Shown: in pieces, positions 20,935-52,303 of the stretch
Position numbering within the stretch: position 1 is the first letter of the stretch
Layout of the letters: each line of letters starts with the position of its first letter
IMG/VR virus record: IMGVR_UViG_3300025012_000028
Location: 62,001-126,000 of that record
Source of the DNA: a virus
Reading direction: 5' to 3' (one strand)
Length of the DNA: 64,000 nt
The notes under the pieces: generated by a model
The model's database searches: none
Seen by the model: only the letters and a program-made list of their open reading frames with translations
What the model was told of the DNA's origin: nothing
Made by a program: the position numbers and the translations under genes

Positions 20935-21855
20935 CTATCTATCTATTTCAATATCATCTACAGTATCTACCCATTTACCAAAGTTTACAGTTTTGTTTGT
21001 ATAGTTGAGTTTGGTCAAACCATCCTCAATCATATCTTTTCGCCACGGATCAGTGCTAATGATAAAGATTTCTTTGATGGTAAATTTATCAATAAGAACC
21101 TCATTATACGATTCATTTTGTTGGTGTTTGAATTTCCGCGATATTTCTTTAATTTCTTCTTTATTGTCAATTAAGAACTGCTTACAAAAAATATAAAACT
21201 CATGTTGGATTTTATAAAAGAATGCGCTTATTAATCTGGACGTTTGATTATTTTCTTTTTTCAGTTCTTTTAATAATTTATAATTTTCCCACGGACTTTT
21301 ATAATTGCTTATTGAAGAAGATTTTAGACCCCCATGTTCGGAAACTTTAATATACTGAAGGGTTGGGTTGTCGTTTATAAATTGCTTAAACAAATTTTCT
21401 ATTAAAATACTTTTTGGATAATGATAATTAACATTCAGACCATTAAATAAAAAATGTACTCCTCTGGTTCCTTTTTCATCTGGAACCGAATAAATATCAT
21501 CATCACCAGCAACTACAAGTTCCCCACTTAATTTACATAAAACATCATAAGCCCTCACATCTTCTTTATAATTTCCTGAAAATGTTTGACCGATAATATT
21601 AGCAGGGTGGCTCAATGACGTAAAAGAACTGACACTTTTCCTAGTATGCTGAATCGCTTTTAAATTTCTAAGACCGTTGATTGTCGTTCCATGAAAGCTT
21701 TCTATTTCCATTTCCCCCAATATTTTTTTGGTTGTTGTGGGCGGAAGATAAAAATATCCGTCTTGTCTAACGATATGTTCAAGATAAGTTTTCTTCCACG
21801 AAATATCCCAAGGATCGATTGGTGCTTCAGTCAGGTATTGTTTGAAAGAAATCAT
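20935..21855 (-). CDS. Predicted packaged head protein, paralogue A
   Basis: The start is ATG 21855 (MISFKQYLTEAPIDPWDISW), aligned with the neighbour's start; a GTG nine bases upstream is rejected. This 306-aa protein is a paralogue of the upstream gene: shared WDISWK, SFHGTT.NGL..L.AIQHTRK and VSSFT blocks, 'FSG.YK', and an 'IPD.KG.RG'-type block. Residues 8-11 (LTEA) fit the gp21 cleavage site, so the first ten residues may be a capsid-targeting tag. The HGTT and QHTRK elements are vaguely like ADP-ribosyltransferase-type folds, but no family can be asserted. It lies in the head module just before terminase. Confidence 0.6.
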   Translation of the reverse strand: MISFKQYLTEAPIDPWDISWKKTYLEHIVRQDGYFYLPPTTTKKILGEMEIESFHGTTINGLRNLKAIQHTRKSVSSFTSLSHPANIIGQTFSGNYKEDVRAYDVLCKLSGELVVAGDDDIYSVPDEKGTRGVHFLFNGLNVNYHYPKSILIENLFKQFINDNPTLQYIKVSEHGGLKSSSISNYKSPWENYKLLKELKKENNQTSRLISAFFYKIQHEFYIFCKQFLIDNKEEIKEISRKFKHQQNESYNEVLIDKFTIKEIFIISTDPWRKDMIEDGLTKLNYTNKTVNFGKWVDTVDDIEIDR

Positions 21856-21857
21856 AT

Positions 21858-22760
21858 TTACCACTGTTCCTTTTCTGGTATATGACTTATAAACTCTATA
21901 AGATCAGGTAAAATTATTTCTTTTAATTGATATCGATCGTAGTCGTGTTGATCCATAATTTGAAACCATTTATCTTTATTAACAAATTTAAGCTGGCCTA
22001 GTTTTGTTATTACTTCCGTGATATGATCGACACGTTCTTTTTGTGGGCATATCAACATCACTTCTTTTATGGTGAAGTTGCTAATGAGATATTCATTATA
22101 AAAAATATGTTTCTGTTCTTCCGCATAATGTGTGTTGAAAATTTCTTCACGGTTTTCGTTTAAAAATTCGTCTAACATTTTATGATAGAGTTGAATGATT
22201 TTTAATTTATATCTCTTAACTGCATTTACACTGATACTGCTATTCAATTCCTCTTCGATGCGGTAGCTACTGGTGGCAGGTTCACCCATTATTTCTCGGA
22301 ATGTTTCCAAACACATATTAGTAACTTCACTTCTGAAATCTGTGAATAAAGATAAATTAGCTATACCCGCCCCTCTCATTCCTTTATGATCCGGAATTGA
22401 TCCTATATCACTATTCCCCGGAAAAATTAATGTGCCTTGAAGTTTAGCGACAACATCCATTCCACTATGTTCATCTTTATAATCGCCCGAAAAGGTTCTA
22501 AAAAGACTAGCCGGACTTTCAATCTTGGTGAATGAAGAAACGGTTTTTCTGGTGTGTTGGATTGCCCTCAGTTTATACAAACCGTCTATGGTAGTTGAGT
22601 GAAATGATGTGACCACTTTTCCAATTAGGTGTTTCTTAACGAGACTAGGTGGAAGATAAATTTGGGTTCTATCAAGAATTATCCTCCACGCATCTCTTTT
22701 CCAAGAAATATCCCAAGGATCGATTGGTGCTTCTGTCAAAAATGATTTAAAAGTGATCAT
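21858..22760 (-). CDS. Predicted packaged head protein, paralogue B
   Basis: 300 aa starting MITFKSFLTEAPIDPWDISW. It is a diverged tandem duplicate of the next gene: identical tag, then shared SFHSTTIDGLYKLRAIQHTR, KTVSSFT and FSGDYKDE blocks, with the C-terminal halves less similar. LTE/A at residues 8-11 is a prohead-protease site. The arrangement between the gp24-like protein and terminase and the absence of its own late box suggest co-expression with capsid proteins. Function after delivery is unknown; an enzymatic effector is my inference. Confidence 0.6.
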   Translation of the reverse strand: MITFKSFLTEAPIDPWDISWKRDAWRIILDRTQIYLPPSLVKKHLIGKVVTSFHSTTIDGLYKLRAIQHTRKTVSSFTKIESPASLFRTFSGDYKDEHSGMDVVAKLQGTLIFPGNSDIGSIPDHKGMRGAGIANLSLFTDFRSEVTNMCLETFREIMGEPATSSYRIEEELNSSISVNAVKRYKLKIIQLYHKMLDEFLNENREEIFNTHYAEEQKHIFYNEYLISNFTIKEVMLICPQKERVDHITEVITKLGQLKFVNKDKWFQIMDQHDYDRYQLKEIILPDLIEFISHIPEKEQW

Positions 22761-22768
22761 AAATTCTC

Positions 22769-24124
22769 TTATTTAAAATTAGGGATTGATATGTTGGCAA
22801 AGTTTTTCAATTCGGTTGTACCATAATCAATCAACATCATCTTAAAGAAGTCAGAATTGCTTTCGTTATCGGAATGCCAGATATTATCTTTGTTTATATT
22901 ACCGACATCCTGTGGATGTCTTGTCATGGCGTAGCGGTCAAGGTAAAGAACGTTCTCTTTCAGATTCGTGTCAGTCACTTGATGGATGGATGTGTTGTAG
23001 GGTGAATAAACCACACCAGTATCACCGTCACCATCATTATCACCCTGATATCCCACTAAGATGAAGTATTCCCCCACATCAGAAAACAAATCGCTGTAGA
23101 GGGGATATGTGCCAACCGTACCTACTTTATAGGGGTTCTGTTCATCCGAGTATGCTTTAGTCACCACAGCATTTGTCTGAAGGAATGCACAAGTAACCGG
23201 ATCAGCAAGAACAAAAATTGTCCTGTTACGTTTGGTGTCACGAACAATTTGCTCACCAGCTAAGAAAATGTTAACCACAAGATCATCAGTGACATCTTTT
23301 AATCCACCACCACCAACAGCAATTGAAGACTTCAAATCAATTTTGGTTGGGGGCAGAACAACATATGATGCGATAAATTTAAGATAAGAAATAAATTCCT
23401 TATCAATCTCCTGTCTGATTTCGTTGGCAATCGATTCGGAAACTAAATCAATTCCCTTTTCCTTATAAACTGCTAACCAATCCTGAAGTTGTTCCTGAGA
23501 CAGTTTGGATTTCAGTTTCCTAGATTTGGCTTTAATATCAACAGTTCTAGTTTCAAAACCAATGAACCTGACTTGGGTATTATCATCATTAGAATAGCCC
23601 ACAAAATTACCATCGGCATCTGTAGTACCAGAGTAACCATGAAACAATTTTTTGATAGCTGCTCTGTTAAATGTTGCATATGAGGCGGTGAATGTGGCAG
23701 AATTGAAAGTATCGTCTTTGACTGGAACACCCTCACCGGAAGTTCTGGCAACCAACAGTTTCTTACCTTCAATAAATCTAATGGTAAATTCAGATGAATC
23801 GGAATCGGCAGTCAATACATCATCGACACTCATACTGCTCACATCTTCTTCCACTACAATTAGGAAGGATGAATCAGGATGAGTATTGGTTTCTGCACTT
23901 GAACCCGAACCAGAATAAGTAGAAAAGAGACTAGCAATTTTACCGACCGGTCCTTTCAGTGGTTGAACATCTGCGACTTGACTGATTAAAGAGTCCAGAT
24001 ATATCTTTTTGAGTAGAGGTAAAATCAGTTGAGCAAAAACGGATGAATCGGCAGAAGATGATAATGCAGATTCTTTAAGAAAATTTTGCTCCAATTGCTC
24101 TAACATCATTTCTATTTTTCTCAT
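22769..24124 (-). CDS. 24: Second capsid protein, gp24-like vertex protein
   Basis: 451 aa, close to T4 gp24 (427), and clearly related in layout to the gp23 family. An N-terminal segment with FLKE/S (site near residue 18) is followed by the P-loop-like LISQVADVQPLKGPVGKIAS, matching VGVQPMNSP of gp23. Later come TVDIKAKSRKLKSKLSQEQL (gp23: ETRKYKAEYSMELAQ), RTIFVLADPVTCAFL and ILVGYQGDNDGDGDTGVVYS (gp23: FIVGYKGSANTDSGIMYC). It probably occupies the eleven pentameric vertices. It is far from gp23, unlike T4. Confidence 0.8.
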   Translation of the reverse strand: MRKIEMMLEQLEQNFLKESALSSSADSSVFAQLILPLLKKIYLDSLISQVADVQPLKGPVGKIASLFSTYSGSGSSAETNTHPDSSFLIVVEEDVSSMSVDDVLTADSDSSEFTIRFIEGKKLLVARTSGEGVPVKDDTFNSATFTASYATFNRAAIKKLFHGYSGTTDADGNFVGYSNDDNTQVRFIGFETRTVDIKAKSRKLKSKLSQEQLQDWLAVYKEKGIDLVSESIANEIRQEIDKEFISYLKFIASYVVLPPTKIDLKSSIAVGGGGLKDVTDDLVVNIFLAGEQIVRDTKRNRTIFVLADPVTCAFLQTNAVVTKAYSDEQNPYKVGTVGTYPLYSDLFSDVGEYFILVGYQGDNDGDGDTGVVYSPYNTSIHQVTDTNLKENVLYLDRYAMTRHPQDVGNINKDNIWHSDNESNSDFFKMMLIDYGTTELKNFANISIPNFK

Positions 24125-24152
24125 GTATGATATCCTTATATAAGTTTTATTT

Positions 24153-24160
24153 TATTTATA
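24153..24160 (-). promoter_or_regulatory. Late promoter box for gp24-like gene
   Basis: TATAAATA on the minus strand, 29 nt upstream of the start at 24124 and inside the end of the short gap after the 801-aa gene. Confidence 0.7.
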
Positions 24161-24164
24161 AAAA

Positions 24165-26570
24165 CTAAATAGAGCGAACCGGAATACACCAGTTGGCGTT
24201 GAACTTTACTGACCTTGCATCAACCTCTCCATTTTTAAAACTGAAAACAAACCTAACCCGATTAAAATCACCATTTTTTAGTTCAGGATCATCACACCAA
24301 CAAAACATATCTAAGTTTAAGTTCCTGAGTTTATTTTTATGTTGATATAACATCTGACATTCTTTCACCGATGGTAATCTCCAATCAGTAAAACCACCGG
24401 CGTTAAAATTGAAACAGAAATTGTCTGCCTCTTCGAATGTATAATATTCATTTCTATATTCGTAGAAGTTGGCAAGTGTCATAATGTTTTCGATTGTCAC
24501 TACGGAATTTTCATCCTTACCTTCCAACGCATTGTTATTCTTTTCAATCACGTCTGTCACCAACATCAGTGGTGGTTTACTGTCTTCTTCGAAGAATATA
24601 ATTTCTTTCCTTGCCATTTGTTGTTTTGTGATTGCTTCTTTAAACAAACCCATCAGTTCCAAAAATTGGTCTGATGTCTCAAAAATTCTTCTGAAATAAC
24701 TCATCAGAACATCCCACATAGGATAGAATAACACATTCTTTGTAACTCTGTCCGAGAATTTCAATTCATCTAATACCATATAAATGTGGTTTTCCATATC
24801 AACGGGACGTTTCAATTCGGCCTCGTATAATTTAAAAAAGTGTTCCGTCACTATCGGCAAGATTTTTACCTGTGGATAAGATACTAAAGTTCCGATGGGA
24901 GATGGAAGTTTATTTAAATCTTTCACACCAAGAAGATATTGGTTCAATACTTTAGTCAGTTTTTTCCCTTCGGGAGAATCTGGTTGCATATTGACAAATA
25001 TTTTGTAAAATTCGTTGGGATCTTTAGTAATGAGTTCTGGTCCGATCTTATTATAATCTATTTTAGAAATTTTGGAATCATTATTATCCTGATAAATTTG
25101 TTTCGTGTTCAGACAGTAGATACCTTCCTTCTTGCCCTGTTTAGAATCCAACCATTGCTGAACAGTCTCTCTAAATCCTTCTATATGTCTTCCATAAACT
25201 GATTCAGAAACATAAAGGAATGTATCGTCGGGATTATCCTCATTGTAATATGGGATAATGAGGTAACGAGCAATTGGATCTTTTAGTGGATCTTTACTTG
25301 TTGGATTTTTTTGTAGACCATATTCTTCGTATAGTTTTGGATACTCTTTTTTAATATCAATTAATGGAAAAATAGATAAAAATTCGTCCTTAAAATAAGA
25401 TTTCCAATTTAATGTAATTTTTGTTTTAGCATCTTGGAGTCCTAATATTTCAAAAAATAAATTTTCTTTCATTGAATCACTAATTTTTCCTACTTCATTT
25501 ATTTTTTTATTGATTACATAAGCAACCAAACACCCCTCATTAATCTCGGTTGGTAGATAATGGCGGTTACTCCCATCTTCCAGATTCTTACAACTGTGCC
25601 ATTCTTTATCATACGATTGCCCTAATATATCATATGGGTGTCGGCTAATTACTACTTCATATTTGTCCGTGTTATCATCTGCGACTTTACCCCTGAAACG
25701 TTCATTGAATTTTTGAAGTAAATCAGATTCACCTTTAGACTGTAATAGTTTCCCGATGCGCATCTGTCTAGAAGAATTAGTAGCCTGAGCTAGACCAGCT
25801 TTCCAATCTACTATCTTATAATCAAATTCACTTAGCTTATCATCAATCTCAACATAAAGATCAGAACTTAAATCCTTATTAATCGGAAGGAACTTGCGCC
25901 ACTTACCATCGAACCATTCTTTATACCGATGTTTATAATCCTCAGAAATACTTTTCCACCATGTTCTACCATAGATGTCTTCATTTGCACCATCTATCAC
26001 TTTTCTATTTGAACCTTTCTTAATCGGCATGTGCATCGCATTACGGTAAGTAGAAAGTTTTATGGCTTCTAACATCAATTTATCACCAATACGATCAACT
26101 AATGGTATATTCCTTTCATCACACCACTCTTTAATTACTTTTGCGTCTTGGTGAATATGTATATGATCTATATTTGGTTTAAACATAATTTCTACAATAT
26201 AATCACTCAGGTTTTCGATACTGGTAGATAAAATTCGTTCTTCCATTTCATCAATTCTATCTTGAGCAGATTTAAACCCAAAATATTTAAAATCATGAAA
26301 AGGTACTATCTTATATTTGTGAGAAAGTTTATTACCATCCAGAGCAATTCTAATATCGGATGGTACACCAGTCCCATGAACTCTTCGATGAAAGTTTTTA
26401 TCTCTGGTTACGGATATTGATGCACCACTTAACACAGAATTATATGATAATAAATCAATTGATTTTAAACTATTATCTTCCAAAATTGATTTACCATTTA
26501 AAATGGTGGTAAAATGGTAAACAATTCCAACCTGTTTCGCTTCGTTGATATAATTTTTAAATGGGATCAT
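24165..26570 (-). CDS. Large predicted packaged protein with DUF1566-like C-terminus
   Basis: 801 aa. The first residues MIPFKNYINEA carry the head-protein tag with INE/A at residues 8-11. Residues 15-70 (VYHFTTILNGKSILEDNSLK, later SGASISVTRD) resemble the N-terminal half of ADP-ribosyltransferase-fold proteins such as Tpt1/DarT types (YHxT...I...L); the resemblance is weak. A middle block WHSCKNL...G.LVAYVI recurs in other tagged proteins here. The last 130 residues (YTFEEADNFCFNFNAGGFTD, then WRLPSVKECQMLY) match the C-type-lectin-like DUF1566 domain. I infer a multi-domain injected protein. Confidence 0.6.
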   Translation of the reverse strand: MIPFKNYINEAKQVGIVYHFTTILNGKSILEDNSLKSIDLLSYNSVLSGASISVTRDKNFHRRVHGTGVPSDIRIALDGNKLSHKYKIVPFHDFKYFGFKSAQDRIDEMEERILSTSIENLSDYIVEIMFKPNIDHIHIHQDAKVIKEWCDERNIPLVDRIGDKLMLEAIKLSTYRNAMHMPIKKGSNRKVIDGANEDIYGRTWWKSISEDYKHRYKEWFDGKWRKFLPINKDLSSDLYVEIDDKLSEFDYKIVDWKAGLAQATNSSRQMRIGKLLQSKGESDLLQKFNERFRGKVADDNTDKYEVVISRHPYDILGQSYDKEWHSCKNLEDGSNRHYLPTEINEGCLVAYVINKKINEVGKISDSMKENLFFEILGLQDAKTKITLNWKSYFKDEFLSIFPLIDIKKEYPKLYEEYGLQKNPTSKDPLKDPIARYLIIPYYNEDNPDDTFLYVSESVYGRHIEGFRETVQQWLDSKQGKKEGIYCLNTKQIYQDNNDSKISKIDYNKIGPELITKDPNEFYKIFVNMQPDSPEGKKLTKVLNQYLLGVKDLNKLPSPIGTLVSYPQVKILPIVTEHFFKLYEAELKRPVDMENHIYMVLDELKFSDRVTKNVLFYPMWDVLMSYFRRIFETSDQFLELMGLFKEAITKQQMARKEIIFFEEDSKPPLMLVTDVIEKNNNALEGKDENSVVTIENIMTLANFYEYRNEYYTFEEADNFCFNFNAGGFTDWRLPSVKECQMLYQHKNKLRNLNLDMFCWCDDPELKNGDFNRVRFVFSFKNGEVDARSVKFNANWCIPVRSI

Positions 26571-26578
26571 GATTTACC

Positions 26579-26607
26579 TTGACATTAAATTAGAGTTGTG
26601 GTAATAT
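26579..26607 (+). promoter_or_regulatory. Early sigma70-like promoter
   Basis: TTGACA (26579-26584), 17-nt spacer, TAATAT (26602-26607) with extended TGG. Confidence 0.75.
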
Positions 26608-26615
26608 TATTTATA
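26608..26615 (-). promoter_or_regulatory. Late promoter box abutting early promoter
   Basis: TATAAATA on the minus strand directly next to the early -10, 38 nt upstream of the 801-aa gene. The same fused arrangement occurs at 898-911. Confidence 0.65.
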
Positions 26616-26638
26616 TTAATTTTTTAGGAGGAAGGGGA

Positions 26639-26911
26639 ATGAAATTTCAAGATATGTCACATGAAGAATTTTTGTTTTTCTTGAAGTGTGTGGTGGATAA
26701 CACCCACCAACCCATGAAAACTACTACCAATCTAACATTTCAGAAAGTATATGAAATGATGATTGGTAGCAGAGAATTCATGAGTATTAAATATTTCAGT
26801 GATACAGCAATAAAAGAAGTTTTGAGAAATAATTGTTTAGCAATGTGTTATATAGAGGCAAGAAAACGTTATCAAAAATTCTTTAATGTCAAGACTCTGG
26901 AATACTACTAA
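26639..26911 (+). CDS. Small early protein, 90 aa, unknown
   Basis: ATG at 26639 after AGGAGGAAGGGGA. It is mostly helical with aromatics (MSHEEFLFFLKCVVDNTHQP). A single-gene cassette that overlaps the convergent small terminase gene by 23 bases, without a terminator. Function unknown. Confidence 0.58.
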   Translation: MKFQDMSHEEFLFFLKCVVDNTHQPMKTTTNLTFQKVYEMMIGSREFMSIKYFSDTAIKEVLRNNCLAMCYIEARKRYQKFFNVKTLEYY

Positions 26912-27443
26912 CATCAACTATCTTTCCATTGCCCTGACCTTGGATAATACTCAACAGATCGGCTGTCGATCCTGAAAAAACATTGATGGTCTGGTTCAAA
27001 TCTCCATTTACATTAGGGACATCTTTGGGTGTCCCTTTTGGTGCTGGTTGTTGTCTTGATTTCTCGATTGCTGCTATATCTTTATAACTTGAAAGCAACA
27101 ATTGAATGTTACTTCCTAAAGCAGTTTGTAATTGAGCCAGTGCCATAAGGTGACTTGGTTTCAGATCGTCCAATTCTACCACACTCACACCATCCAAAAT
27201 CCTATTTCCGGCGTTGACAACCTTCATGATGTTCTGTCTGACTATCTGAAAATCCATTTTAAGTTGATTTAAATCTAAAATAGATTCGTTGGGTTTATAT
27301 TCCACCAACTCTCCACCTGTTTCATAAGGAGCGGGAAGAAGATCGTCCGTGGAAAAATCGTCCACCAGTTCTGAAAGGTCTTCAACCAGAGTTTGAGCAA
27401 GAGAAAACTTCTCTTCTAGTCTTTGTAATTTTTCGTTTTTCAT
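26889..27443 (-). CDS. 16: Small terminase subunit, T4 gp16-like
   Basis: 184 aa (T4 gp16 is 164). It contains the gp16 central pattern: LDLNQLKMDFQIVRQNIMKV, then LKPSHLMALAQLQTALGSNI and LLLSSYKDIAAIEKS, aligning with DDYGVVRRNM..., ...VFSTLMGQMTTTN and HKEMKDI of T4. The C-terminal INVFSGSTADLLSIIQG parallels the T4 YEGTPTELLRLVG tail. It binds DNA or regulates the gp17 motor. Its order after gp15 and before gp17 is that of T4. Confidence 0.82.
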   Translation of the reverse strand: MKNEKLQRLEEKFSLAQTLVEDLSELVDDFSTDDLLPAPYETGGELVEYKPNESILDLNQLKMDFQIVRQNIMKVVNAGNRILDGVSVVELDDLKPSHLMALAQLQTALGSNIQLLLSSYKDIAAIEKSRQQPAPKGTPKDVPNVNGDLNQTINVFSGSTADLLSIIQGQGNGKIVDVSSIPES

Positions 27444-27502
27444 TTAACCGTCCTTAAGGTGGTGAGGCAGAGCGCCAGAATCAGGTTATAAAATAGTTTC
27501 AT
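27440..27502 (-). CDS. 20-aa coupled peptide before gp16
   Basis: ATG 27502 follows AAGGAAAAA. The 20-codon frame (MKLFYNLILALC then TTLRTVK) ends in an ATGA overlap with the gp16 start, so gp16 translation is probably coupled to it. The N-terminus is hydrophobic. It may be a true micro-protein or a translational leader. Confidence 0.35.
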   Translation of the reverse strand: MKLFYNLILALCLTTLRTVK

Positions 27503-27511
27503 TTTTTCCTT

Positions 27512-32100: not shown

Positions 32101-32109
32101 ATAATTTTG

Positions 32110-41662: not shown

Positions 41663-41669
41663 ATTTATG
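41662..41669 (-). promoter_or_regulatory. Late-type box variant (CATAAATA)
   Basis: Minus-strand CATAAATA, 51 nt upstream of the fibre gene start at 41611, overlapping the terminator hairpin by one base. Confidence 0.4.
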
Positions 41670-41681
41670 ATCTATCTTTTA

Positions 41682-42101: not shown

Positions 42102-42113
42102 TAGTTCTTTCTC

Positions 42114-42344: not shown

Positions 42345-42538
42345 TTCTTTCTCCTTAGTTTCAATCTTCGTTGTACTTTAGTTTTATTTATATTTAGAAT
42401 TGGTGTGAACTGTGAAACGTCTCCCAAAGAAGTAGAACCTTCCATATCTTCATAGATGTTTTGTGAGGATGTTTCTTCTAAAAAAGAAACATCGATATCT
42501 TCTTTCAGTAAACCAAGTGCATTTAATAGTTTATTCAT
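42326..42538 (-). pseudogene. Truncated capsid-protein N-terminus (gp23/24-like remnant)
   Basis: ATG 42538 opens 70 codons. Residues 31-49 (NIYEDMEGSTSLGDVSQFTP) align with gp23 residues around 49-66 (NYLMEDGSTSLNDFTQYTP), after which capsid similarity ends and a basic tail follows. LKE at residues 11-13 gives a prohead-protease-type site. The piece is either a decayed capsid paralogue or a small protein keeping only the delta region that contacts the scaffold. It lies against the end of a homing endonuclease gene. Confidence 0.6.
42385..42392 (-). promoter_or_regulatory. Late promoter box
   Basis: TATAAATA on the minus strand, 41 nt upstream of the start at 42344, inside the remnant's 3' end. 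Confidence 0.62.
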
Positions 42539-43340
42539 AATGTTTAAACCCCATAACCCACCCAAGATTTAAATAGGATTGTAATTCGTGGGGATGTACT
42601 ACTTTAATTTTTTTGGAACTGTCGTTATGTATATATTTACGTCCCTTACGTGATTCCGACATCTGCACAGATCTTTTTTGTCTATATTCTTCGTCTTGCC
42701 ACAACCGAATATTCGTTTCACTGACCGATTTACTTTTTCTAACTCTATATTCTTCATTCTCCCATAATAATTTGTTTGCGTTGGATATTGTCTGTTTAAA
42801 TTTTGGGTCTTCGTGGAGTTTTTTCATGTTATTAGATTGAATTGGTTTCATCTTATTTTTAAATTCTTCATTTGACCACATATTAATCATATGCGTCGAA
42901 CTTTTTTCTTTCATTTGAAGTTTGAATAATGGGTTCGTCCACAGTAGACTAATAGATTTAGTCATGTTATTAGATTGGATTGGTTTCATCTTATTTTTAA
43001 ATTCTTCATTTGACCACAATTTTTGTAATGCTTTTCGTGTTACTTCTAATGTAATATGATCAAAACCACCCTCACCTCCCAATTTTATATTATAACAATT
43101 CGGATCGTTGGTTTCTTTGTTTGTGACCAACTCTTTTTCTTTATCTACCATTTGTTGTTTATTTTTCAATTCAAATAATATTTCTTTTTTAAAATTTTCC
43201 CTGCCGTGTTTTTTAATAGCTCTTTTTAGTAACAGACCCGATCCAAGATACCCATCATCTTTGTTGGGAGTTTGGTGCATTCCAATGTAATAATTATTAT
43301 TTATTATGTTTGTGGTTTTATATATAATATAATATTTCAT
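42531..43340 (-). CDS. GIY-YIG homing endonuclease
   Basis: 269 aa. The GIY-YIG nuclease domain is visible at the N-terminus (YYIIYKTTNIINNNYYIGMH, then GYLGSGLLLKRAIKKHG with Arg-type helix, and the Glu in VDKEKELV; the terminal Asn is in CYNIKLGGEGG). Downstream are repeated DNA-binding units: LWSNEEFKNKMKPIQSNN appears twice, with related NMWSNEEF and LWQDEEYRQK units. It is a free-standing mobile endonuclease inserted between 43341 and the capsid remnant. Confidence 0.88.
   Translation of the reverse strand: MKYYIIYKTTNIINNNYYIGMHQTPNKDDGYLGSGLLLKRAIKKHGRENFKKEILFELKNKQQMVDKEKELVTNKETNDPNCYNIKLGGEGGFDHITLEVTRKALQKLWSNEEFKNKMKPIQSNNMTKSISLLWTNPLFKLQMKEKSSTHMINMWSNEEFKNKMKPIQSNNMKKLHEDPKFKQTISNANKLLWENEEYRVRKSKSVSETNIRLWQDEEYRQKRSVQMSESRKGRKYIHNDSSKKIKVVHPHELQSYLNLGWVMGFKHYE
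42825..43018 (-). repeat. 56-bp repeat inside GIY-YIG gene
   Basis: Copies at 42825-42880 and 42963-43018 differ at one base; the offset is 138 bases (46 codons). They code for the repeated DNA-binding unit. Confidence 0.85.
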
Positions 43341-44113: not shown

Positions 44114-44124
44114 TATTTTAATTC

Positions 44125-44132
44125 TATTTATA
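44125..44132 (-). promoter_or_regulatory. Late promoter box
   Basis: TATAAATA on the minus strand, 12 nt upstream of the start at 44113 and immediately after the terminator of the upstream operon. Confidence 0.62.
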
Positions 44133-44137
44133 ATAAG

Positions 44138-44167
44138 AAAGGCACCTGAAAAAGATCAAGTGCCTTT
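44138..44167 (-). terminator. Terminator after 44191 gene
   Basis: AAAGGCAC / GTGCCTTT stem extended by TGA/TCA around an internal mismatch, followed by TTCTTATT on the minus strand. Confidence 0.7.
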
Positions 44168-44190
44168 TGGTTCATCAAATATGTTGGTTG

Positions 44191-45207: not shown

Positions 45208-45209
45208 AA

Positions 45210-45668: not shown

Positions 45669-45679
45669 ATGGTATTCTC

Positions 45680-45868
45680 CTATATGAAAGTAATGATTCC
45701 TGATTTGGGGTCGTAATGTCTGCCTCTATGATCTTTTTTAAATTTGAGTGATTTACATTTTTCTTTAACTTCTTTGTCGGTAAGATTCTTTCCAATATCA
45801 AAGGATTCAGAATCATCGGCATTAACTTTTTCTTGTAGGAGATTAAGAGTTTTTATAAAATTATTCAT
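45680..45868 (-). CDS. Small late protein with LQE site, 62 aa
   Basis: It starts MNNFIKTLNLLQEKVNADDS with LQE/K at residues 11-14, similar to the head-protein tags. The rest is basic and short (SLKFKKDHRGRHYDPKSGII). First gene of an operon behind a late box. It may be packaged. Confidence 0.5.
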   Translation of the reverse strand: MNNFIKTLNLLQEKVNADDSESFDIGKNLTDKEVKEKCKSLKFKKDHRGRHYDPKSGIITFI

Positions 45869-45896
45869 TAGTGAATCCTTTGAGTTTATTTATGAT

Positions 45897-45904
45897 TATT
45901 TATA
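45897..45904 (-). promoter_or_regulatory. Late promoter box for 45868 operon
   Basis: TATAAATA on the minus strand, 29 nt upstream of the start at 45868. Confidence 0.65.
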
Positions 45905-45914
45905 AAATAATTTC

Positions 45915-45943
45915 TTGACTTCTGGTGTGGGTTCTGGTAAGAT
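45915..45943 (+). promoter_or_regulatory. Early sigma70-like promoter
   Basis: TTGACT (45915-45920), 17-nt spacer, TAAGAT (45938-45943) with TGG extension, driving the 45970-47546 cassette. Confidence 0.74.
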
Positions 45944-45969
45944 AAATTTATAAAACATTTGGGGGAATT

Positions 45970-46290
45970 ATGAGACAAGGAAAAGTTGGGGATAGATTTT
46001 ATGAAGGTGAAGTGGTGTTAACTATAACCGGAAAAGAAACTACTCCGTTTCCTAAACTGACGCTCGATTCTAACCGCAAGACAATCAATACACTCAAAAG
46101 AGTTGATAAATGGTTGTTGGAAAATACTCAGAAAGAAGCACACTCACGAAACGATGAATTTAATAGCACAACATTTGATAGAATGAACTCCACCAAACTT
46201 AGTATGTCGGATAAAGACACTCTCGAATATTATCTGTTTGGTGAAGATCAACCAGTAGTTCTGAAACCTTTTCTCAAATCACTTTTTTAA
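45970..46290 (+). CDS. Early protein, 106 aa, unknown
   Basis: ATG at 45970 after GGGGGAATT. A beta-rich first third (GKVGDRFYEGEVVLTITGKE) is followed by polar helices. It is the first gene of a six-gene plus-strand cassette. No family recognised. Confidence 0.6.
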   Translation: MRQGKVGDRFYEGEVVLTITGKETTPFPKLTLDSNRKTINTLKRVDKWLLENTQKEAHSRNDEFNSTTFDRMNSTKLSMSDKDTLEYYLFGEDQPVVLKPFLKSLF

Positions 46291-46314
46291 TAAAAATATA
46301 ATATAGGAGGAAAT

Positions 46315-46449
46315 ATGTTTCGAATTGTTTGTTTCAACGGAACCACCGACGAAATTTGGGGAAATTCAATTTCCGAAGCAGTGGAACGGTTTGTTAAAAA
46401 ACACAAACTTCATGAAGTTGATATTGAATCTATAGTGAGGGTAATTTAA
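46315..46449 (+). CDS. Small early protein, 44 aa
   Basis: ATG at 46315 after AGGAGGAAAT. It starts MFRIVCFNGTTDEIWGNSIS and ends in a basic helix and a short strand. Followed by a tightly spaced ATG of the next gene. Unknown. Confidence 0.55.
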   Translation: MFRIVCFNGTTDEIWGNSISEAVERFVKKHKLHEVDIESIVRVI

Positions 46450-46450
46450 T

Positions 46451-46690
46451 ATGACCACCAACCAAATGATTAACGAAATTCGAAACACGGTAGGATATAT
46501 GGAATCTGAAAATAAAAAAGAATTTATTAAAGGTGCCAAGATGGGATATGATATATGTAGTAATGCGGCATGGAAAATGATTGGTGACACACAAAAACAT
46601 GCTGAGTCGCTTGCAGAACTGTTGTCAAACCGTGAAGAAGATCTTCAGACTCTAGCCAACATTATCCAGAAATATACTTCTAATGATTGA
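46451..46690 (+). CDS. Small early protein, 79 aa, helical
   Basis: ATG at 46451, one base after the previous TAA. Nearly all alpha-helical (MTTNQMINEIRNTVGYMESE; HAESLAELLSNREEDLQTLA), probably a coiled coil. Unknown. Confidence 0.55.
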   Translation: MTTNQMINEIRNTVGYMESENKKEFIKGAKMGYDICSNAAWKMIGDTQKHAESLAELLSNREEDLQTLANIIQKYTSND

Positions 46691-46699
46691 GGAGAATAT

Positions 46700-46879
46700 A
46701 TGAACATACCAAAACATCGACACGAAGATGTTATTGCTGTTCTGTGGCAACTTTTAACAGAAGTGGAAGGATCAGTTAAGGAAACTGATGCAGTTGGAAA
46801 AGCGATGGTGGTTAGCGGTTATAACCTCATGAACGATCTGGGTGTAACGGATGCTAGACCTCGTTGGGAATCAAAATAA
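46700..46879 (+). CDS. Small early protein, 59 aa
   Basis: ATG at 46700 after GGAGAATAT. It starts MNIPKHRHEDVIAVLWQLLT; helical, slightly acidic. Unknown. Confidence 0.55.
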   Translation: MNIPKHRHEDVIAVLWQLLTEVEGSVKETDAVGKAMVVSGYNLMNDLGVTDARPRWESK

Positions 46880-46899
46880 CTACTGGTTAAGGAGAATTT

Positions 46900-47181
46900 A
46901 TGAACGAAAATTATAATGAGTTTTATCAGAGAAAGAAACTACCCAAAGGTCTGTGTCGTAAGATGTGGACAGACTATCCTTTTGTGAATTATCTCAACGG
47001 TGCTCTAGTTACAGTTCTCAATTACGATGGGAATAAGTATTGTGATGTGCAGCTTCCTGATGGTACTTTTGCAGATGTGAAACGGGGATACCTACATCGC
47101 ACCATCAAGGATCTGAATGTTTGGCGCAAAAGAATGTTGGGTGACTATTACAGGCGAACAAAACAGAGGATGTATCTATGA
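46900..47181 (+). CDS. Small early protein, 93 aa, basic
   Basis: ATG at 46900 after AAGGAGAATTT. It starts MNENYNEFYQRKKLPKGLCR. The middle (VTVLNYDGNKYCDVQLPDGT) is typical of a small SH3/KOW-like barrel, and the C-terminus is Arg-rich. It could bind nucleic acid. It overlaps the next gene by four bases. Confidence 0.58.
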   Translation: MNENYNEFYQRKKLPKGLCRKMWTDYPFVNYLNGALVTVLNYDGNKYCDVQLPDGTFADVKRGYLHRTIKDLNVWRKRMLGDYYRRTKQRMYL

Positions 47182-47546
47182 ATACTTTTCAGGGTGATAA
47201 TTATCGATTTGATATAACTGCTACCGGTGACGATCTACTTAGAATAGCTATACAGGTAGCTTTCATGAAAGAAAATGAGGTTGTTGATATTAAAGAAGTA
47301 AACAACACTTTAGTTCTTTATTGGTCAACGGAAAAAGCAAATCCTTTCATGACTCTTGATTTTGAAGCAACATTCAAAGTCGTTAAAGAGTGGTTGGATA
47401 AACAAACACAATATCCCAATGAACCCAATCACGATGGAGACAACAAAAAGGGATTTAGGGTTTATAATGAAGCGTGGGGTGAAGTGAAAAACGATTGGAG
47501 AGCATTTTGTGGTATTGAACCAGTGCGGATGATGTATGGTAAATAA
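47178..47546 (+). CDS. Early protein, 122 aa, unknown
   Basis: ATG at 47178 overlaps the previous gene. The order is a mixed alpha/beta N-terminal half (DNYRFDITATGDDLLRIAIQ), a strand (TLVLYWSTEKANPF), then a helix (TFKVVKEWLDKQTQ) and a Trp-rich tail. No signature. Last gene before the terminator. Confidence 0.58.
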   Translation: MNTFQGDNYRFDITATGDDLLRIAIQVAFMKENEVVDIKEVNNTLVLYWSTEKANPFMTLDFEATFKVVKEWLDKQTQYPNEPNHDGDNKKGFRVYNEAWGEVKNDWRAFCGIEPVRMMYGK

Positions 47547-47549
47547 AAG

Positions 47550-47582
47550 AAAACCCTCTAAGATTTCTCTTAGAGGGGTTTT
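47550..47582 (+). terminator. Terminator of early cassette
   Basis: Stem AAAACCC-TCTAAGA / TCTTAGA-GGGGTTTT with a bulged G and TTTC loop. Confidence 0.85.
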
Positions 47583-47601
47583 CTATATTAAAAATCCTTT
47601 T

Positions 47602-47609
47602 TATAAATA
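47602..47609 (+). promoter_or_regulatory. Late-type box on plus strand (leader A)
   Basis: TATAAATA on the plus strand upstream of the GIY-YIG gene at 47705; the same box occurs at 52331-52338 before the other endonuclease. Transcripts would begin near the structured leader. Confidence 0.55.
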
Positions 47610-47691
47610 AAAGAAACGGATAAGTTCAGTTGTTGACGCAACCGAACAACAGGAAGGGGAAACCCGCTGTCTCCGTTCACTTCTATTTATA
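47602..47691 (+). ncRNA. Structured leader A of homing endonuclease gene
   Basis: Predicted three-way junction. Closing stem AACGGA (47615-47620) with TCCGTT (47672-47677). Arm 1: GTTC-A-GTTG with CAAC-C-GAAC (47624-47647). Arm 2: ACAG-GAA-GGG, GAAA tetraloop, CCC-G-CTGT (47649-47670). The outer TATAAATA and TATTTATA (47684-47691) are also complementary. A near-identical element precedes the unrelated endonuclease at 52434; arm 1 differs but still pairs there. Function unknown, possibly translational control or mobility. Confidence 0.6.
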
Positions 47692-47704
47692 TAAGGGGAA
47701 TCTG

Positions 47705-48802
47705 ATGAACAAACCAGAAGTTGTTGAAGTCAAAGCCTACCATATTGTCTACCTCACCACAAATCCTTTTAACAATAAAATCTATGTTGGTAAACATTCA
47801 ACCAACAATCTTAACGATGGGTATAAAGGTTCTGGTAAATATTTAAATAAAGCTTTTAAGAAATATGGAAAGAAACATTTTAAATTCCAAATTCTTCATT
47901 ACTGTCTTACTTTGATGGATGCTTATGAAGTTGAGGGGTGGATTGTAGATCAAGCTTTTATTGATAGACCAGATACTTACAATGTGGTCGTTGGTGGAAG
48001 AATGACCCCAGATTGGACAGGAAAGAAACGATCTGAAGAATGTATAGCTAAACATAAAATGTATAGAGCAACAGAAGAAACAAAGAAATTAATCAGTATT
48101 GCAAATACTGGAAAAATTAAAACTCCAGAACAACTTGAATTAATGAGAACATTATCGACTGGAAGGAAAGATTCGGAAGAGACAAAACAGAAAAAGAGGT
48201 TGGCAAACTTAGGAAGGAAACATACCGAAGAAGCATTAAGAAAAATGAGAGGAAGGAAATTAACAAAAGAACACATTAATAAATTAACCGGAAGAAAACG
48301 TACAGAAGAGACATTATTAAAATTAAAATGTAGAGTTGTAAAACCAGAATCAATTTTACAAGGAGTTCAGACTAGAAGTAATTATTTCCCAAAACTTTTA
48401 TTAATTTCTCCTACTGGTGAAACTCATATAATACAATATTCCCTTCAAACTTTCTGTAGAACGCACAATCTTTCTTATACGACCATTTTTACAAATTTAA
48501 ATAAAGGACCAATTAAGTTTTATTACAATAGTAAAAGTGAAAAATATATCAATTCAATTGGGTGGGAACTAAGAGACGATTCATTTTCACAATCAAATAT
48601 AAAATTACCAAAAGAATATTTGATCATATCCCCAGATGGAAAAGAACATAAATGTAATTATATTTCTTCATTTTGTCGGCAACATAATCTATCCAACCAT
48701 ATTTTATCGAGACATATAGACAAGGGAATTATATCATGTAGAAACGGGAAATCTAAAGAGTATATGAACAATAAAGGTTGGGAGATACGAAGTATAAAAT
48801 AA
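47705..48802 (+). CDS. GIY-YIG homing endonuclease with NUMOD repeats
   Basis: The ATG at 47705 follows AAGGGGAATCTG; an upstream in-frame TTG lies in the structured leader and is rejected. The 365-aa product has an N-terminal GIY-YIG nuclease (YHIVYLTTNPFNNKIYVGKH, then GYKGSGKYLNKAFKKYGKKH; terminal TYNVVVGG). Residues 100-215 hold several NUMOD3-type repeats (GKKRSEECIAKHK; GRKHTEEALRKMRGRKLT). The C-terminus has two NUMOD1-like units with the C-R-x-H-N-L core (FCRTHNLSYTTIF, FCRQHNLSNHIL). It lies alone behind a leader shared with the gene at 52434. Confidence 0.9.
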   Translation: MNKPEVVEVKAYHIVYLTTNPFNNKIYVGKHSTNNLNDGYKGSGKYLNKAFKKYGKKHFKFQILHYCLTLMDAYEVEGWIVDQAFIDRPDTYNVVVGGRMTPDWTGKKRSEECIAKHKMYRATEETKKLISIANTGKIKTPEQLELMRTLSTGRKDSEETKQKKRLANLGRKHTEEALRKMRGRKLTKEHINKLTGRKRTEETLLKLKCRVVKPESILQGVQTRSNYFPKLLLISPTGETHIIQYSLQTFCRTHNLSYTTIFTNLNKGPIKFYYNSKSEKYINSIGWELRDDSFSQSNIKLPKEYLIISPDGKEHKCNYISSFCRQHNLSNHILSRHIDKGIISCRNGKSKEYMNNKGWEIRSIK

Positions 48803-48833
48803 GCAGTTCTATATTTTAGAACTGCTTATTTTT
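48797..48833. terminator. Bidirectional terminator
   Basis: Stem AAATAAGCAGTTCTA / TAGAACTGCTTATTTTT with TATTT loop, between the endonuclease and the convergent gene ending at 48832. Confidence 0.88.
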
Positions 48834-49098
48834 AGTGTTTTTTGAATCTAACGCCCCGTCTTTGTACAATTTTATGAAGCTTGCCATCAGCGCCATAACT
48901 GAAACCCTTACGTCTTGGCTTGTTCTTAATTTTCATTTTATATTTTTTAGAGCGTCTCTTCAGTTTGGATTTATTTTTCATTCTATAACGCTTTGCTAAT
49001 AATTTCTTTTTTTGTGTGAGATGGCGCACCTTTATTATTTTCTCTTCTATCACTTCATCACATAAAACTTCATTTAGAATACTTTCTAATATACTCAT
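48832..49098 (-). CDS. Very basic predicted packaged protein, 88 aa
   Basis: It starts MSILESILNEVLCDEV; LNE/V at residues 8-11 fits the head tag. After cleavage the remainder is one third Lys/Arg (KLLAKRYRMKNKSKLKRRSK), ideal for DNA binding, like the basic internal proteins of T4. It overlaps the preceding gene by four bases, so it is made with it. No family. Confidence 0.6.
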   Translation of the reverse strand: MSILESILNEVLCDEVIEEKIIKVRHLTQKKKLLAKRYRMKNKSKLKRRSKKYKMKIKNKPRRKGFSYGADGKLHKIVQRRGVRFKKH

Positions 49099-49592
49099 TT
49101 CGAAAATGCTCCACCCGCCTCTTCTGGAAGTTTGTCTTCTTCGAATGCAGTTTCATCTTCTTTGGTAGGGGGTTCCTCGTAATATTCTTCATCCGGTTCT
49201 TCCCCAATTTCTGTTTCGATTTCGAAGTAATCGGAAAGAATTTTAATAATCTCCAAGCAGGTAGCATCATCAAACTTATCCGCATACTTGGCAAGAATCT
49301 CAGTAGAAATATCCACACTTTCATCTTCATCGGCAACCTCACCATCAACCAATGCTTCATTTTCCATGATATCCAGAATATTGAAACAGATGTCGCGCAA
49401 CTGTGATTGTGGGGTATCTTCATCTTCTACAACCGTTTCTTCCGGTTCCTCAGTAGGTTCGGTGGGTTCTTCAATAACCTCTTCCTCTTTAGGTTCTTCA
49501 GTAGGAGCGGGTTCTTCTTCAGACGAAAATGCACCTTTCTTTTCTTCGGTTTCCTCAACTGCCTCTTTTAAAATACTATCAAATATATTCAT
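49095..49592 (-). CDS. Acidic predicted packaged protein, 165 aa
   Basis: It starts MNIFDSILKEAVEETEEKKG with LKE/A at residues 8-11. Then an extremely acidic Glu/Pro region (PKEEEVIEEPTEPTEEPEE), a small helical domain in the middle (SQLRDICFNILDIMENEALV), and an acidic tail ending EEAGGAFSK. The contrast with the basic 88-aa neighbour is striking; the pair may form a complex in the head. Function unknown. Confidence 0.58.
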   Translation of the reverse strand: MNIFDSILKEAVEETEEKKGAFSSEEEPAPTEEPKEEEVIEEPTEPTEEPEETVVEDEDTPQSQLRDICFNILDIMENEALVDGEVADEDESVDISTEILAKYADKFDDATCLEIIKILSDYFEIETEIGEEPDEEYYEEPPTKEDETAFEEDKLPEEAGGAFSK

Positions 49593-49595
49593 TGA

Positions 49596-50162
49596 TCAAT
49601 CCTTTTTAGTTAAAGTATAATTATAGCGCCCATTGTCGCCTTTTACATAAGCCCATTCGATCATAGAGAATTTTTTTAACTCATTATAAACTCTCTTCTG
49701 AATCGAATCAAATTGATTTATAGCTTTATTTATATCTGATTTATTTCTAACCTTTGTACCCAGAACTTCATAACTCCCATAGTTCAATTCATTTTTAGTG
49801 TCGTTGGATATCAAAGCTTCCGGTTTGATATTATCATCTCCATCAACCAATATACTAGAAATGTGGTTGTTGATTTTATAATTCACCTTGGCTTTAGCCA
49901 GCGCAGCAGCAACCTCATTTATTTCAGATTGGGAAACACCAACAAAAGAAAGTGTGATTTTTATACTTCCTCGCAACGAAATTGACTTGTAGGAGTAACC
50001 ATGTCTAGAAGGTTCCACATATCCATCCGACGACTTTTTCTCCTTATAAGAGGCAAGAGAGGACTTCCTGAGAACAGATCGGATTGCCTTTATCAAATCC
50101 TCTTCCGTGTCAAACGATTTCTCGTTGAGTGCTTCCGATAGAATTTTATTTAAAATTTTCAT
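49596..50162 (-). CDS. Predicted packaged protein, 188 aa
   Basis: The start is ATG 50162 with AAGGATCATC; a longer open frame upstream overlaps the previous gene and has no ribosome site. It begins MKILNKILSEALNEKSFDTE; LSE/A at residues 8-11 is the head tag. The rest is alpha/beta (KSISLRGSIKITLSFVGVSQ; EINEVAAALAKAKVNYKI). No family recognised. Part of the four-gene operon with the 710-aa protein. Confidence 0.58.
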   Translation of the reverse strand: MKILNKILSEALNEKSFDTEEDLIKAIRSVLRKSSLASYKEKKSSDGYVEPSRHGYSYKSISLRGSIKITLSFVGVSQSEINEVAAALAKAKVNYKINNHISSILVDGDDNIKPEALISNDTKNELNYGSYEVLGTKVRNKSDINKAINQFDSIQKRVYNELKKFSMIEWAYVKGDNGRYNYTLTKKD

Positions 50163-50170
50163 GATGATCC

Positions 50171-52303
50171 TTATGACAAGTAGCAACTAAAATTAAAAGT
50201 TTCCGTTCCTTCGATCTTTGAGAAATAAAGTATAATTACACTATTCATGATCGTTCTTCCATCCGTGGTTATGATATCCAAATCCACATCACCATTATCG
50301 GAAGGGAGAACATAATTCTCATTGGCTAGAGATAAATCATATTTATTTAGAATGTTTTTAATTTCATCCAACGGCAACTGAGGAAGTGGTTGAGCTATGA
50401 TTTGTTTCAGTTCCTCGTTGGCATTGACTCTATCAAATGAAAGAAGTCTAGCAGTTTTCTTTTCGGGACGCTCGACCAGATTGTTTGAATCCAATTCGGG
50501 TTCTGGTTCCTCTTCTGGAATTAATTCTTCGGGTTCCACATCAACAGGTTCTTCTAATGATTCATCTTCCATTGGTGGTTCTTCACTGAAAGCACCTTCT
50601 AACATTATATTAAAAACATTAACATTTGATATTTCTTTACTATTTTCAATAAGATTTATATTTTTCCAAGCTTTGAAATTATCCCATTCTGGAAGAATAC
50701 CAGCACATATCATAGCAAGTTTATTTCCATATGCTCTTGCTTGATCTGAATAATCAAATGCAGTATTGGAAGTATATATAATTAATTGTGAATCTTTCCA
50801 CACTTTACAATCATACATCCCCCCGTCAACTTTAAAAACAGATACTTTAAATCCTTTGGGACATTTTACTTTTATATCTTGTTTATGGTCTTCTGTCTCA
50901 CATAAAGCACCTTCCAAAAGTTTCCCAAATAAATTCTTACTCTCAAATTTAAATTTGAGTTGTTCTGATTCATTATCTTTCATGTAGGTCAAAGAATCAG
51001 GAAGAGGATGAACAAATTTAAAATCGTGTGGGAAAGATTCTAAAAAGAATTCAATGTATGCAAACAAATCTGAATTATCTTCTTTAAAAGCTTCTAAATC
51101 TTCTTTAGTCCAATTGGAAAAAGCAGTATGATAGTCTTCGGTGTGTTGAAAAGATTGTTCATCTGGTTCTGAATCCGATTCCATCTCAATCCAATACATC
51201 CATTTGTCCTGCAATTGATCATAAAAATCATACACCGATTCCTTGGCTTCTTTTTCATGCCAAGCTTTATCTTCATCTTCAGTCGGCCACCAAGGATCTA
51301 AAAACATATCAACAAAACTTGGCATTCTATCGTCGGCCCAATTATCGTGGTGGTGGTATTTATGATTACGGGTGAAACTATATTTAAAAATATCAAACCC
51401 TTCTTTAATCACGCGATCCCAATGATTGATTTGCCATTCTTCTTCAATATTATAATCCTCATATTCATCCTCATCTCTGGGACGATTCAGATAATCATCT
51501 TCATTCTCCCAATTCTCATCCAACATTCTATGTGCTGCTGCTTCTTCATCAAAGATAAACTTTAGCGGAGTTCTTTCTTTTATCTTTCCATAATTTTTGG
51601 TGAAGTTAGGCAAATCTTCGATGATACTATATGGTTTGTTGTCGCTGCGATCATTATAATCCCTACTTTCTTGGATTTCGCCATTCTTAATATAAATCTG
51701 GTATTTTTCGAATGGATCATCCACATTGATGAACTGAAGAAGATCACCACTTCTGCTATATGCTCTCCAATGTGAATCGGTGTTTAGATATGCAGTACAC
51801 CAGTTTGCTTGCGGATTGGTCTTATATTGAGCACCTTTAATATTCCCTTCTTGTGTTAGGGTTTCAATACAAATCCATTCATCGGTAACATCAATGACTG
51901 TGATATCATCTGGCATATTGAAGATATCTTTTTCTTTTTTCTTCTTCTGCCTGTTGGATTCAGTTTCTTCTAATGTATCAACATAAGCAAAGAACTCTCT
52001 CCAAGTTTTGAATGAAGTGAAAGAGACACCTTTAGATAGGCGATGGAATTTTTCAAGATCATCTTTGATAGTTTCATGTTCAGCGACATGATGAAGGTCT
52101 AATTCTTTATCTCTCTTTATGAGATTGATAATACCTTCAAGATATTTACCACGCTGACCATTCTTTGAGGTAGGGTCTTGTGCTGCTAGATCATTGAATA
52201 CATCGAGAGGGATAAGTTTATGATCGACATATGAATCATAAAATTTTTGTAATGAAATCTCGATTAAAAATTGTTCTTCTAATATTTTGTGTAAAATTGA
52301 CAT
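50171..52303 (-). CDS. 710-aa predicted packaged polyprotein
   Basis: N-terminal tag MSILHKILEEQ (LEE/Q at residues 8-11). Two internal segments copy the tag: NLFGKLLEGALCE (457-469) and NVFNIMLEGAFSE (562-574), compared with NIFDSILKEAVEE at the start of the 49095 gene. They divide the protein into three modules of about 450, 105 and 140 residues. Module 1 contains NWCTAYL and SRSGDLLQFIN (168-193), then a long acidic Trp-rich region. Module 3 has a Glu/Pro linker. Late box 24 nt upstream. Prohead-protease processing is inferred. Confidence 0.58.
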   Translation of the reverse strand: MSILHKILEEQFLIEISLQKFYDSYVDHKLIPLDVFNDLAAQDPTSKNGQRGKYLEGIINLIKRDKELDLHHVAEHETIKDDLEKFHRLSKGVSFTSFKTWREFFAYVDTLEETESNRQKKKKEKDIFNMPDDITVIDVTDEWICIETLTQEGNIKGAQYKTNPQANWCTAYLNTDSHWRAYSRSGDLLQFINVDDPFEKYQIYIKNGEIQESRDYNDRSDNKPYSIIEDLPNFTKNYGKIKERTPLKFIFDEEAAAHRMLDENWENEDDYLNRPRDEDEYEDYNIEEEWQINHWDRVIKEGFDIFKYSFTRNHKYHHHDNWADDRMPSFVDMFLDPWWPTEDEDKAWHEKEAKESVYDFYDQLQDKWMYWIEMESDSEPDEQSFQHTEDYHTAFSNWTKEDLEAFKEDNSDLFAYIEFFLESFPHDFKFVHPLPDSLTYMKDNESEQLKFKFESKNLFGKLLEGALCETEDHKQDIKVKCPKGFKVSVFKVDGGMYDCKVWKDSQLIIYTSNTAFDYSDQARAYGNKLAMICAGILPEWDNFKAWKNINLIENSKEISNVNVFNIMLEGAFSEEPPMEDESLEEPVDVEPEELIPEEEPEPELDSNNLVERPEKKTARLLSFDRVNANEELKQIIAQPLPQLPLDEIKNILNKYDLSLANENYVLPSDNGDVDLDIITTDGRTIMNSVIILYFSKIEGTETFNFSCYLS

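Follow-up and report, generated by a model that had tools for sequence, protein, structure and literature searches.

Many otherwise dissimilar proteins encoded by a large T4-like bacterial virus from the IMG/VR database begin with a common peptide of about ten residues, and this tag is very likely a capsid-targeting propeptide of the phage T4 type, borne by an unusually large set of proteins that would be packaged in the head, cleaved and ejected into the host. The window, i.e. the whole stretch of DNA examined, comprises 64,000 nucleotides (positions 62,001-126,000 of record IMGVR_UViG_3300025012_000028), and the remainder of the 214,553-bp record was analysed as well. Genes were called on overlapping stretches with our own caller, and start choices are approximate. 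Gene numbers are window coordinates for the seven tagged genes first reported and for 45680, and contig coordinates for genes outside the window. By analogy with T4 internal protein (IP) III, hydrophobic residues at positions 4 and 7 would dock each protein on the gp22/core complex in the prohead core. A gp21-type S77 protease would then cut after (L/I)xE at residue 10, and the mature proteins would remain in the head with the DNA until ejected into the host. In this way the phage probably brings preformed proteins for host attack and anti-defence into the cell along with its DNA. The genes first reported are as follows, with a slash at the predicted junction.

20935-21855, minus strand: tagged protein of 306 amino acids, MISFKQYLTE/APIDPWDISWK, tag codons 21826-21855
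21858-22760, minus strand: tagged protein of 300 amino acids, MITFKSFLTE/APIDPWDISWK, tag codons 22731-22760
24165-26570, minus strand: tagged multidomain protein of 801 amino acids, MIPFKNYINE/AKQVGIVYHFT
45680-45868, minus strand: MNNFIKTLNLLQE protein, positions 8 and 10 not matched
48832-49098, minus strand: small basic tagged protein of 88 amino acids, MSILESILNE/V, ILxxILxE class
49095-49592, minus strand: acidic tagged protein of 165 amino acids, MNIFDSILKE/A
49596-50162, minus strand: tagged protein of 188 amino acids, MKILNKILSE/A, with a YscJ/FliF-like stretch just below the Pfam cut-off
50171-52303, minus strand: tagged protein of 710 amino acids, MSILHKILEE/Q, first gene of a four-gene tagged run

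The seven N-termini aligned in a preliminary description of the window were confirmed on the minus strand, with Leu or Ile at position 8 and Glu at position 10 in all seven. Two starts were corrected, that of 20935 to the ATG at 21855 (the listed open reading frame (ORF) began at a GTG three codons further upstream), and the start of 49596 to the ATG at 50162. The same description regarded the seven proteins as unrelated, but 20935 and 21858 are paralogs with 41% identity. Its set of seven to nine tagged genes was an underestimate, as the total in the genome is approximately 20 proteins, and its suggestion of 45680 as a possible member fails at the two key positions. The 45680 product resembles genes at contig 194427 (MNNFQKTLHLLTE) and 194697 (MENNFNRILKTLTE), and its membership in the tagged set is uncertain. 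The small proteins encoded at contig 194427-195038 and by 45680 start with MNNFxKTLxLLxE or a similar sequence, two of them behind late promoters, and such starts are possibly a third address class.

Among 367 ORFs called over the whole genome, [LI]xE occurred 24 times at positions 8 and 10, compared with approximately five times at other offsets. The stricter four-position pattern (hydrophobic residues at 4 and 7, Leu or Ile at 8, Glu at 10) was found in 18 of the 307 proteins with 60 or more amino acids, all 18 on the minus strand, where internal windows gave an expectation of 0.29 (binomial p about 1e-26); a column-shuffle control yielded a mean of 1.2 and a maximum of 7 in 20,000. An unsupervised motif scan recovered the same motif, in that F4-[FY]7-E10 ranked highest for enrichment among the N-terminal motifs of this genome (15 observed versus 0.29 expected), and it still ranked first once paralogs were collapsed (14 versus 0.19). 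Chance matches at the N-termini of many A+T-rich ORFs do produce single false positives, as illustrated by an apparently unrelated T4 gene that fits a relaxed pattern (MKQYQDLIKDIFE); the reversed pattern, however, had no match in 37 contigs, and the probability of a chance origin is negligible. This origin was rejected on the excess of 18 over 0.29 together with the unsupervised recovery.

Two tag classes were distinguished, a main class MISFKxFLxE and a second class ILxxILxE, and in each case a short N-terminal peptide of 10-19 residues precedes unrelated bodies. A few further proteins have the first half of the tag with the L-x-E shifted downstream. The largest tagged cluster lies outside the window at contig 138,168-142,508, where six consecutive genes with overlapping ends all start with MI[SR]FK.

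For the 16 MISFK-type genes, pairwise amino-acid identity was 86% over codons 2-5 and 42% over codons 6-10, and from codon 12 it stood at a background of 6%. Codon use under the fixed residues was free, with Phe4 encoded by TTT in eight genes and TTC in eight, and Leu8 by six different codons. The fall to background past residue 11 together with this codon variation indicates that the peptide itself is under selection, and varied codons under the same residue make it unlikely that recent DNA copying or an RNA-level signal is the main cause. These data also bear on whether the common N-termini are functionless leftovers of gene duplication or of recombination at 5' ends. Such an origin has some footing in the true paralogy of 20935 and 21858 and in the several tagged genes that are tandem neighbours with overlapping ends; randomised synonymous codons under fixed residues, the loss of identity directly past the tag, and the occurrence of the same tag before 63 body families in other contigs make it very improbable. 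Shared DNA or simple duplication was rejected on the variation in codons and the drop in identity.

Ten residues are enough for the packaging of T4 IPIII, with positions 4 and 7 governing targeting and 8 and 10 governing processing (PMC9026906). The positions conserved in the present genome are those same four. The corresponding N-termini in the T4 record are MKTFKEFTSTTTPVSTITEA (MKTFKEF...ITEA) for IPI, MKTYQEFIAEA for IPII and IPIII, ...FLTEA for gp23 and MAKINELLRES for gp24. Judged by sequence, the main tag MISFKxFLxE is of the IP type, while the four genes at 48832-52303 (MSILESILNE, MNIFDSILKE, MKILNKILSE and MSILHKILEE) look closer to the gp24 type.

The halves of the tag also behave separately. 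Both 139217 (MISFKSYILLVE/S) and 164893 (MISFKTFLHAPLLLE/A) keep the first half, with the LxE further downstream, as in T4 IPI. The N-terminal domain of 24165 is common to the protein at contig 58479-59009, and these homologous bodies start at a common E/AKQVGI junction, preceded by a propeptide of 10 residues in 24165 and by one of 19 residues (MTLFEQLIQDILKDEQLYE) in the other. Salicola phage SCTP-2 has proteins homologous to the 139217 body, and these start with MKVKHITQYLFE/SYKDAQ, a different address with an identical E/S junction. The E/A or E/S junction is therefore retained when the length or address of the propeptide is altered, and we read docking and cutting as two separate constraints on the tag. 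Alternatively, the tag is no head propeptide and docks proteins elsewhere, on the tail, the baseplate, a replication focus, the inner membrane or another phage structure or compartment. A short amphipathic helix could be formed by the tag, packaging in the head is a prediction, and some tagged proteins that lack a clean LxE imply that docking without cleavage would occur. Against this, the tag matches the mapped T4 capsid-targeting sequence (CTS) position by position as well as the T4 internal-protein sequences, and the LxE half stays next to the body under a changed address, although a tag that served docking alone would have no need of it; docking elsewhere is accordingly considered unlikely.

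The machinery expected of a T4-type propeptide is encoded by the same genome. The window carries, on its minus strand, a head and tail module of the T4 type, and S77 protease, scaffold, gp23 and gp24 were all found.

3285-4895, minus strand: gp23 major capsid protein, candidate propeptide site NYLME/D from alignment with T4 and L014, where cleavage is predicted
4960-5643, minus strand: gp22-type scaffold (core) protein (PF25623, 6.5e-20; phrog_237, 6.5e-23)
5720-6406, minus strand: gp21-type prohead protease, Peptidase_S77 (PF03420, 2.5e-16; phrog_207, 9.8e-49), with MAELLIEE as its own N-terminus
18434-20083, minus strand: large terminase, approximately 35% identity to T4-like phages
22769-24124, minus strand: gp24/gp23-family head (vertex-like) protein (PF07068, 1.5e-40; phrog_138 major head protein, 3e-40)

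The head protein at 22769-24124 is flanked by tagged genes and begins with MRKIEMMLEQLEQNFLKES, with a candidate cleavage site at FLKE/S. The closest gp23 found in IMG/VR is 46% identical, so the phage is distant from known ones.

The T4 late-promoter octamer TATAAATA occurred 69 times, over half of these 10-120 bp from a gene start, compared with 1-5 occurrences for permuted octamers. It precedes gp20-gp24, terminase, sheath and tubes, lies 36 bp upstream of the head protein at 22769-24124, and was found at four tagged units: 35 bp upstream of 146233, 95 bp upstream of 198126, and at two sites in the window.

26608-26615, minus strand: T4-type late promoter octamer TATAAATA, 45 bp upstream of tagged 24165
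52327-52334, minus strand: T4-type late promoter octamer TATAAATA, 31 bp upstream of 50171, at the head of the four-gene tagged run

A survey of IMG/VR was performed with a degenerate DNA pattern for MI[STR]FKxFLxE and, as control, the same codons in permuted order. The pattern was present in at least 120 stretches, nearly all at real ORF starts, and among the matches listed the 133 ORFs had a median length of 212 amino acids; the control gave 12 stretches with a median of 10 amino acids, mostly junk. Among the matches listed, 140 non-redundant tagged proteins fell into 63 body families. The S77 protease was found in 15 of 15 tag-bearing contigs of at least 130 kb versus 5 of 8 random ones, and in 9 of 45 shorter tag-bearing contigs (14-77 kb) versus 1 of 42 random; gp23 was present in the large tag-bearing contigs with S77. 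In 15 random contigs that lack S77, a looser tag pattern had no match, and its reversed control matched in no contig at all. Protease-bearing phages were not separated from the others by a generic count of [LIVMF]xE at any place in residues 6-20, a separation achieved by the positioned motif alone.

The tag was likewise kept on distant homologs, including three of three relatives of 198126 (MISFKEFLSE, MINFKDFLLE and MINFKKYIIE) and both relatives of the kinase-like 146233 (MISFKRFLFE and MRFKDFLQE). The middle domain of 24165, which also occurs in Agrobacterium phage Atu_ph07 and in Erwinia phages, is found in Atu_ph07 in a gene starting MQYTDLIE/A. This homolog sample is not neutral, because all loci except Atu_ph07 were fetched through the tag. 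In summary, the core of the preliminary proposal, a T4-type propeptide with an (L/I)xE site on many proteins, is supported by the sequence tests, namely the IPIII positions, the S77 protease, the tags on distant homologs and codon-level selection; the late promoters at several units and effector-like bodies were also counted in its support.

Several of the proteins behind the tag look like host- or defence-directed enzymes. In the genome itself, 138168 joins an ART-PolyVal domain (3.2e-19) to a GNAT acetyltransferase, a second ART-PolyVal (1.1e-7) is found in 141690 and a GNAT in 59011, and 146233 shows a resemblance to the gp0.7 kinase family of T7 (phrog_15752, 4e-6). An N-terminal YHxT domain, ART-like by eye only, is common to 24165, 58479 and 140489, and the C-terminal domain of 24165 is Lcl_C-like below the Pfam cut-off. 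In other phages the tag precedes ART exoenzymes, zeta toxins, amidoligases, cytidylyltransferases and RNA ligases. A homolog of Acb1, which acts against the cyclic-oligonucleotide-based antiphage signaling system (CBASS), carries a complete tag before the Acb1 domain (L041:6884-7333, 3.4e-36; MISFKQFLHE/NTKPLYV). An S-adenosylmethionine (S-AdoMet) lyase profile was matched within the tagged set of other phages (2.3e-12), while phmmer with the T3 enzyme picked out no S-AdoMet lyase member among the tagged proteins.

Some searches were negative. No match to 20935 was found in Pfam, PHROG or PDB, and a 20935/21858 profile had none among PDB sequences; 21858 and 50171 had no close IMG/VR relatives in a search with back-translated peptides, and 21858 and 198126 had no relatives among cultured phages. 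AlphaFold2 models were unusable both for 21858, modelled from an alignment of two sequences, and for the N-terminal domain of 24165 (predicted local distance difference test scores of 33 and 31). By eye, similar W-C / H-C motifs (e.g. KWCITESTPAHWNSY, NWCTAYLNTDSHW and MGHCGTGSHG) were noted in tagged 24165, 50171, 139217 and 164893 with no Pfam match; these proteins possibly share one effector domain.

A more serious alternative, possible although clearly the less probable, is that the tag does target the head and most of the cargo is structural or DNA-condensing internal protein, not host-directed effectors. The small basic 48832 and the strongly acidic 49095 resemble T4 core and internal proteins, and in other phages DUF6267 and DUF6321 lead the tally of body domains. 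Part of the set may be of this kind, because most bodies are unassigned. The recurrence of takeover and counter-defence enzymes (ART, GNAT, kinase, Acb1, S-AdoMet lyase and zeta toxin) argues against it as the general explanation.

Several observations weigh against a T4-type propeptide on an arsenal of ejected proteins. That the proteins are packaged, cleaved, delivered and active in the proposed ways is extrapolated from T4. A clean site is missing in some tagged ORFs (e.g. MISYKTIFEDL in 145059), and no late promoter lies directly upstream of the tagged clusters at 138-142 kb and 57-60 kb. Large contigs commonly have S77, which makes its association with the tag a modest one, and unselected S77-bearing contigs have at most one clear IP-type tag each, with none in G099. 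Finally, takeover or counter-defence domains occur on a minority of the bodies, most of which have no assigned function.

Other phages appear to use other addresses. In Salicola phage SCTP-2, which has an S77 protease, M[KR][IVL]xx[IL]..E occurs on 25 of 436 genes versus 0.45 expected, and several of the tagged genes (L283, L294-L313) are tandem paralogs starting MKVKHITQYLFESYKDAQ. Five random S77-bearing contigs (G119, G102, G091, G071 and G099) and three large ones without S77 were compared, with patterns read post hoc. In G119 (L392-L401), MRAWEL[YF]E/N or a near variant begins several genes with different bodies, and a related start, MKIYELFETSQNTGFKLFVDLDGVLVDF, stands on a HAD-like protein; G102 has a set with M..[FW]..[FW]...[KR]; G091 has a few starts of both T4 types and G071 one or two. 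Nothing comparable was found in the three large contigs without S77 except one paralog family. In G090 (L342-L351, no S77), a protein family starting MIQVRxNxFETNSSSSHS shows a strikingly conserved N-terminal motif.

This small sample of post hoc patterns suggests a separate head address for each phage and a protease site held in common. A broader generalisation is marginally favoured: large T4-like phages would place their own N-terminal address and a common L-x-E site on 10-30 unrelated proteins, an injected arsenal for counter-defence and takeover, with the address co-evolving with the core scaffold and predicting the whole ejected proteome. Signs of phage-specific addresses are MISFKxFLxE on 18 genes here, the SCTP-2, G119 and G102 sets, and homologous bodies with different addresses and the same E/S junction; the known anti-defence families Acb1 and S-AdoMet lyase behind the tag are a further sign. 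A literature search found no account of tagged sets this large or of phage-specific addresses, which is weak evidence since subscription literature lay mostly outside the search.

Some observations on neighbouring subjects are recorded here. The Acb1 (gp57B) of cultured T4-like phages (L272:9953-10411, which is T4 57B, and L278, L275 and L276) has an N-terminus that resembles the targeting half without an LxE site, with starts of MMEFKDF in T4, MKSFKDF in POP12 and MKSFLEI in KP15, and is possibly a head protein there. An Acb1-like match falls in genes annotated as portal protein in phages of Rhizobium and Aminobacter. Genes resembling GIY-YIG homing endonucleases were noted by eye (MKYYIIYKTTNIINNNYYIGMHQ and similar) at window 42531-43340 and at contig 7396, 11905 and 144150.

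To our knowledge, sets of injected proteins are known for only a few model phages. A ten-residue tag readable from sequence would make ejected proteins predictable from a genome, and with it unassigned genes can be screened directly for new proteins of anti-defence and host takeover. The presence of Acb1 and S-AdoMet lyase among tagged proteins suggests that the head comes already loaded with counter-defence for the first minute. A 2026 review of jumbo phages names a single anti-defence protein, Tad1, as described in that group (PMC13282480).

The closest known system is the CTS of T4 IPI, IPII and IPIII, with which the present set shares a ten-residue peptide, the same four positions, unrelated bodies, gp21, gp22 and gp23, and shifted-site variants as in IPI. 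In T4 the tag loads first-minute counter-defence, with IPI acting against GmrSD (PMC9026906) and IPIII needed on ECOR17 (PMC9391042), a use that the tagged enzymes here would fit. T4 has three IPs plus Alt, whereas approximately 20 proteins are tagged here, in two tag classes and including multidomain proteins of up to 801 amino acids beside small ones; residues 2-3 are usually Ile-Ser in place of the Lys-Thr of T4 IPs. The T4 gp24 propeptide (MAKINELLRE/S) resembles the second class (ILxxILxE) and the SCTP-2 address MKINELLNE/S, but it sits on a shell protein and not on cargo. T4 Alt, a packaged and ejected ADP-ribosyltransferase, is similar to the ART-type cargo (ART-PolyVal) found here, although it belongs to another ART clade (PMC5512222) and has another propeptide. 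The inner-body and ejection proteins of phiKZ and SPN3US are likewise a large jumbo-phage set ejected with the DNA, several of them processed by the prohead protease (PMC5694885, PMC13282480), but several of their propeptides exceed 100 residues, compared with 10-19 here, as in T4. The ART-PolyVal domain and a predicted delivery with DNA are also known from polyvalent proteins, which phages and plasmids encode (PMC5512222); unlike these, most of the tagged proteins have at most two recognised domains and carry an explicit head tag.

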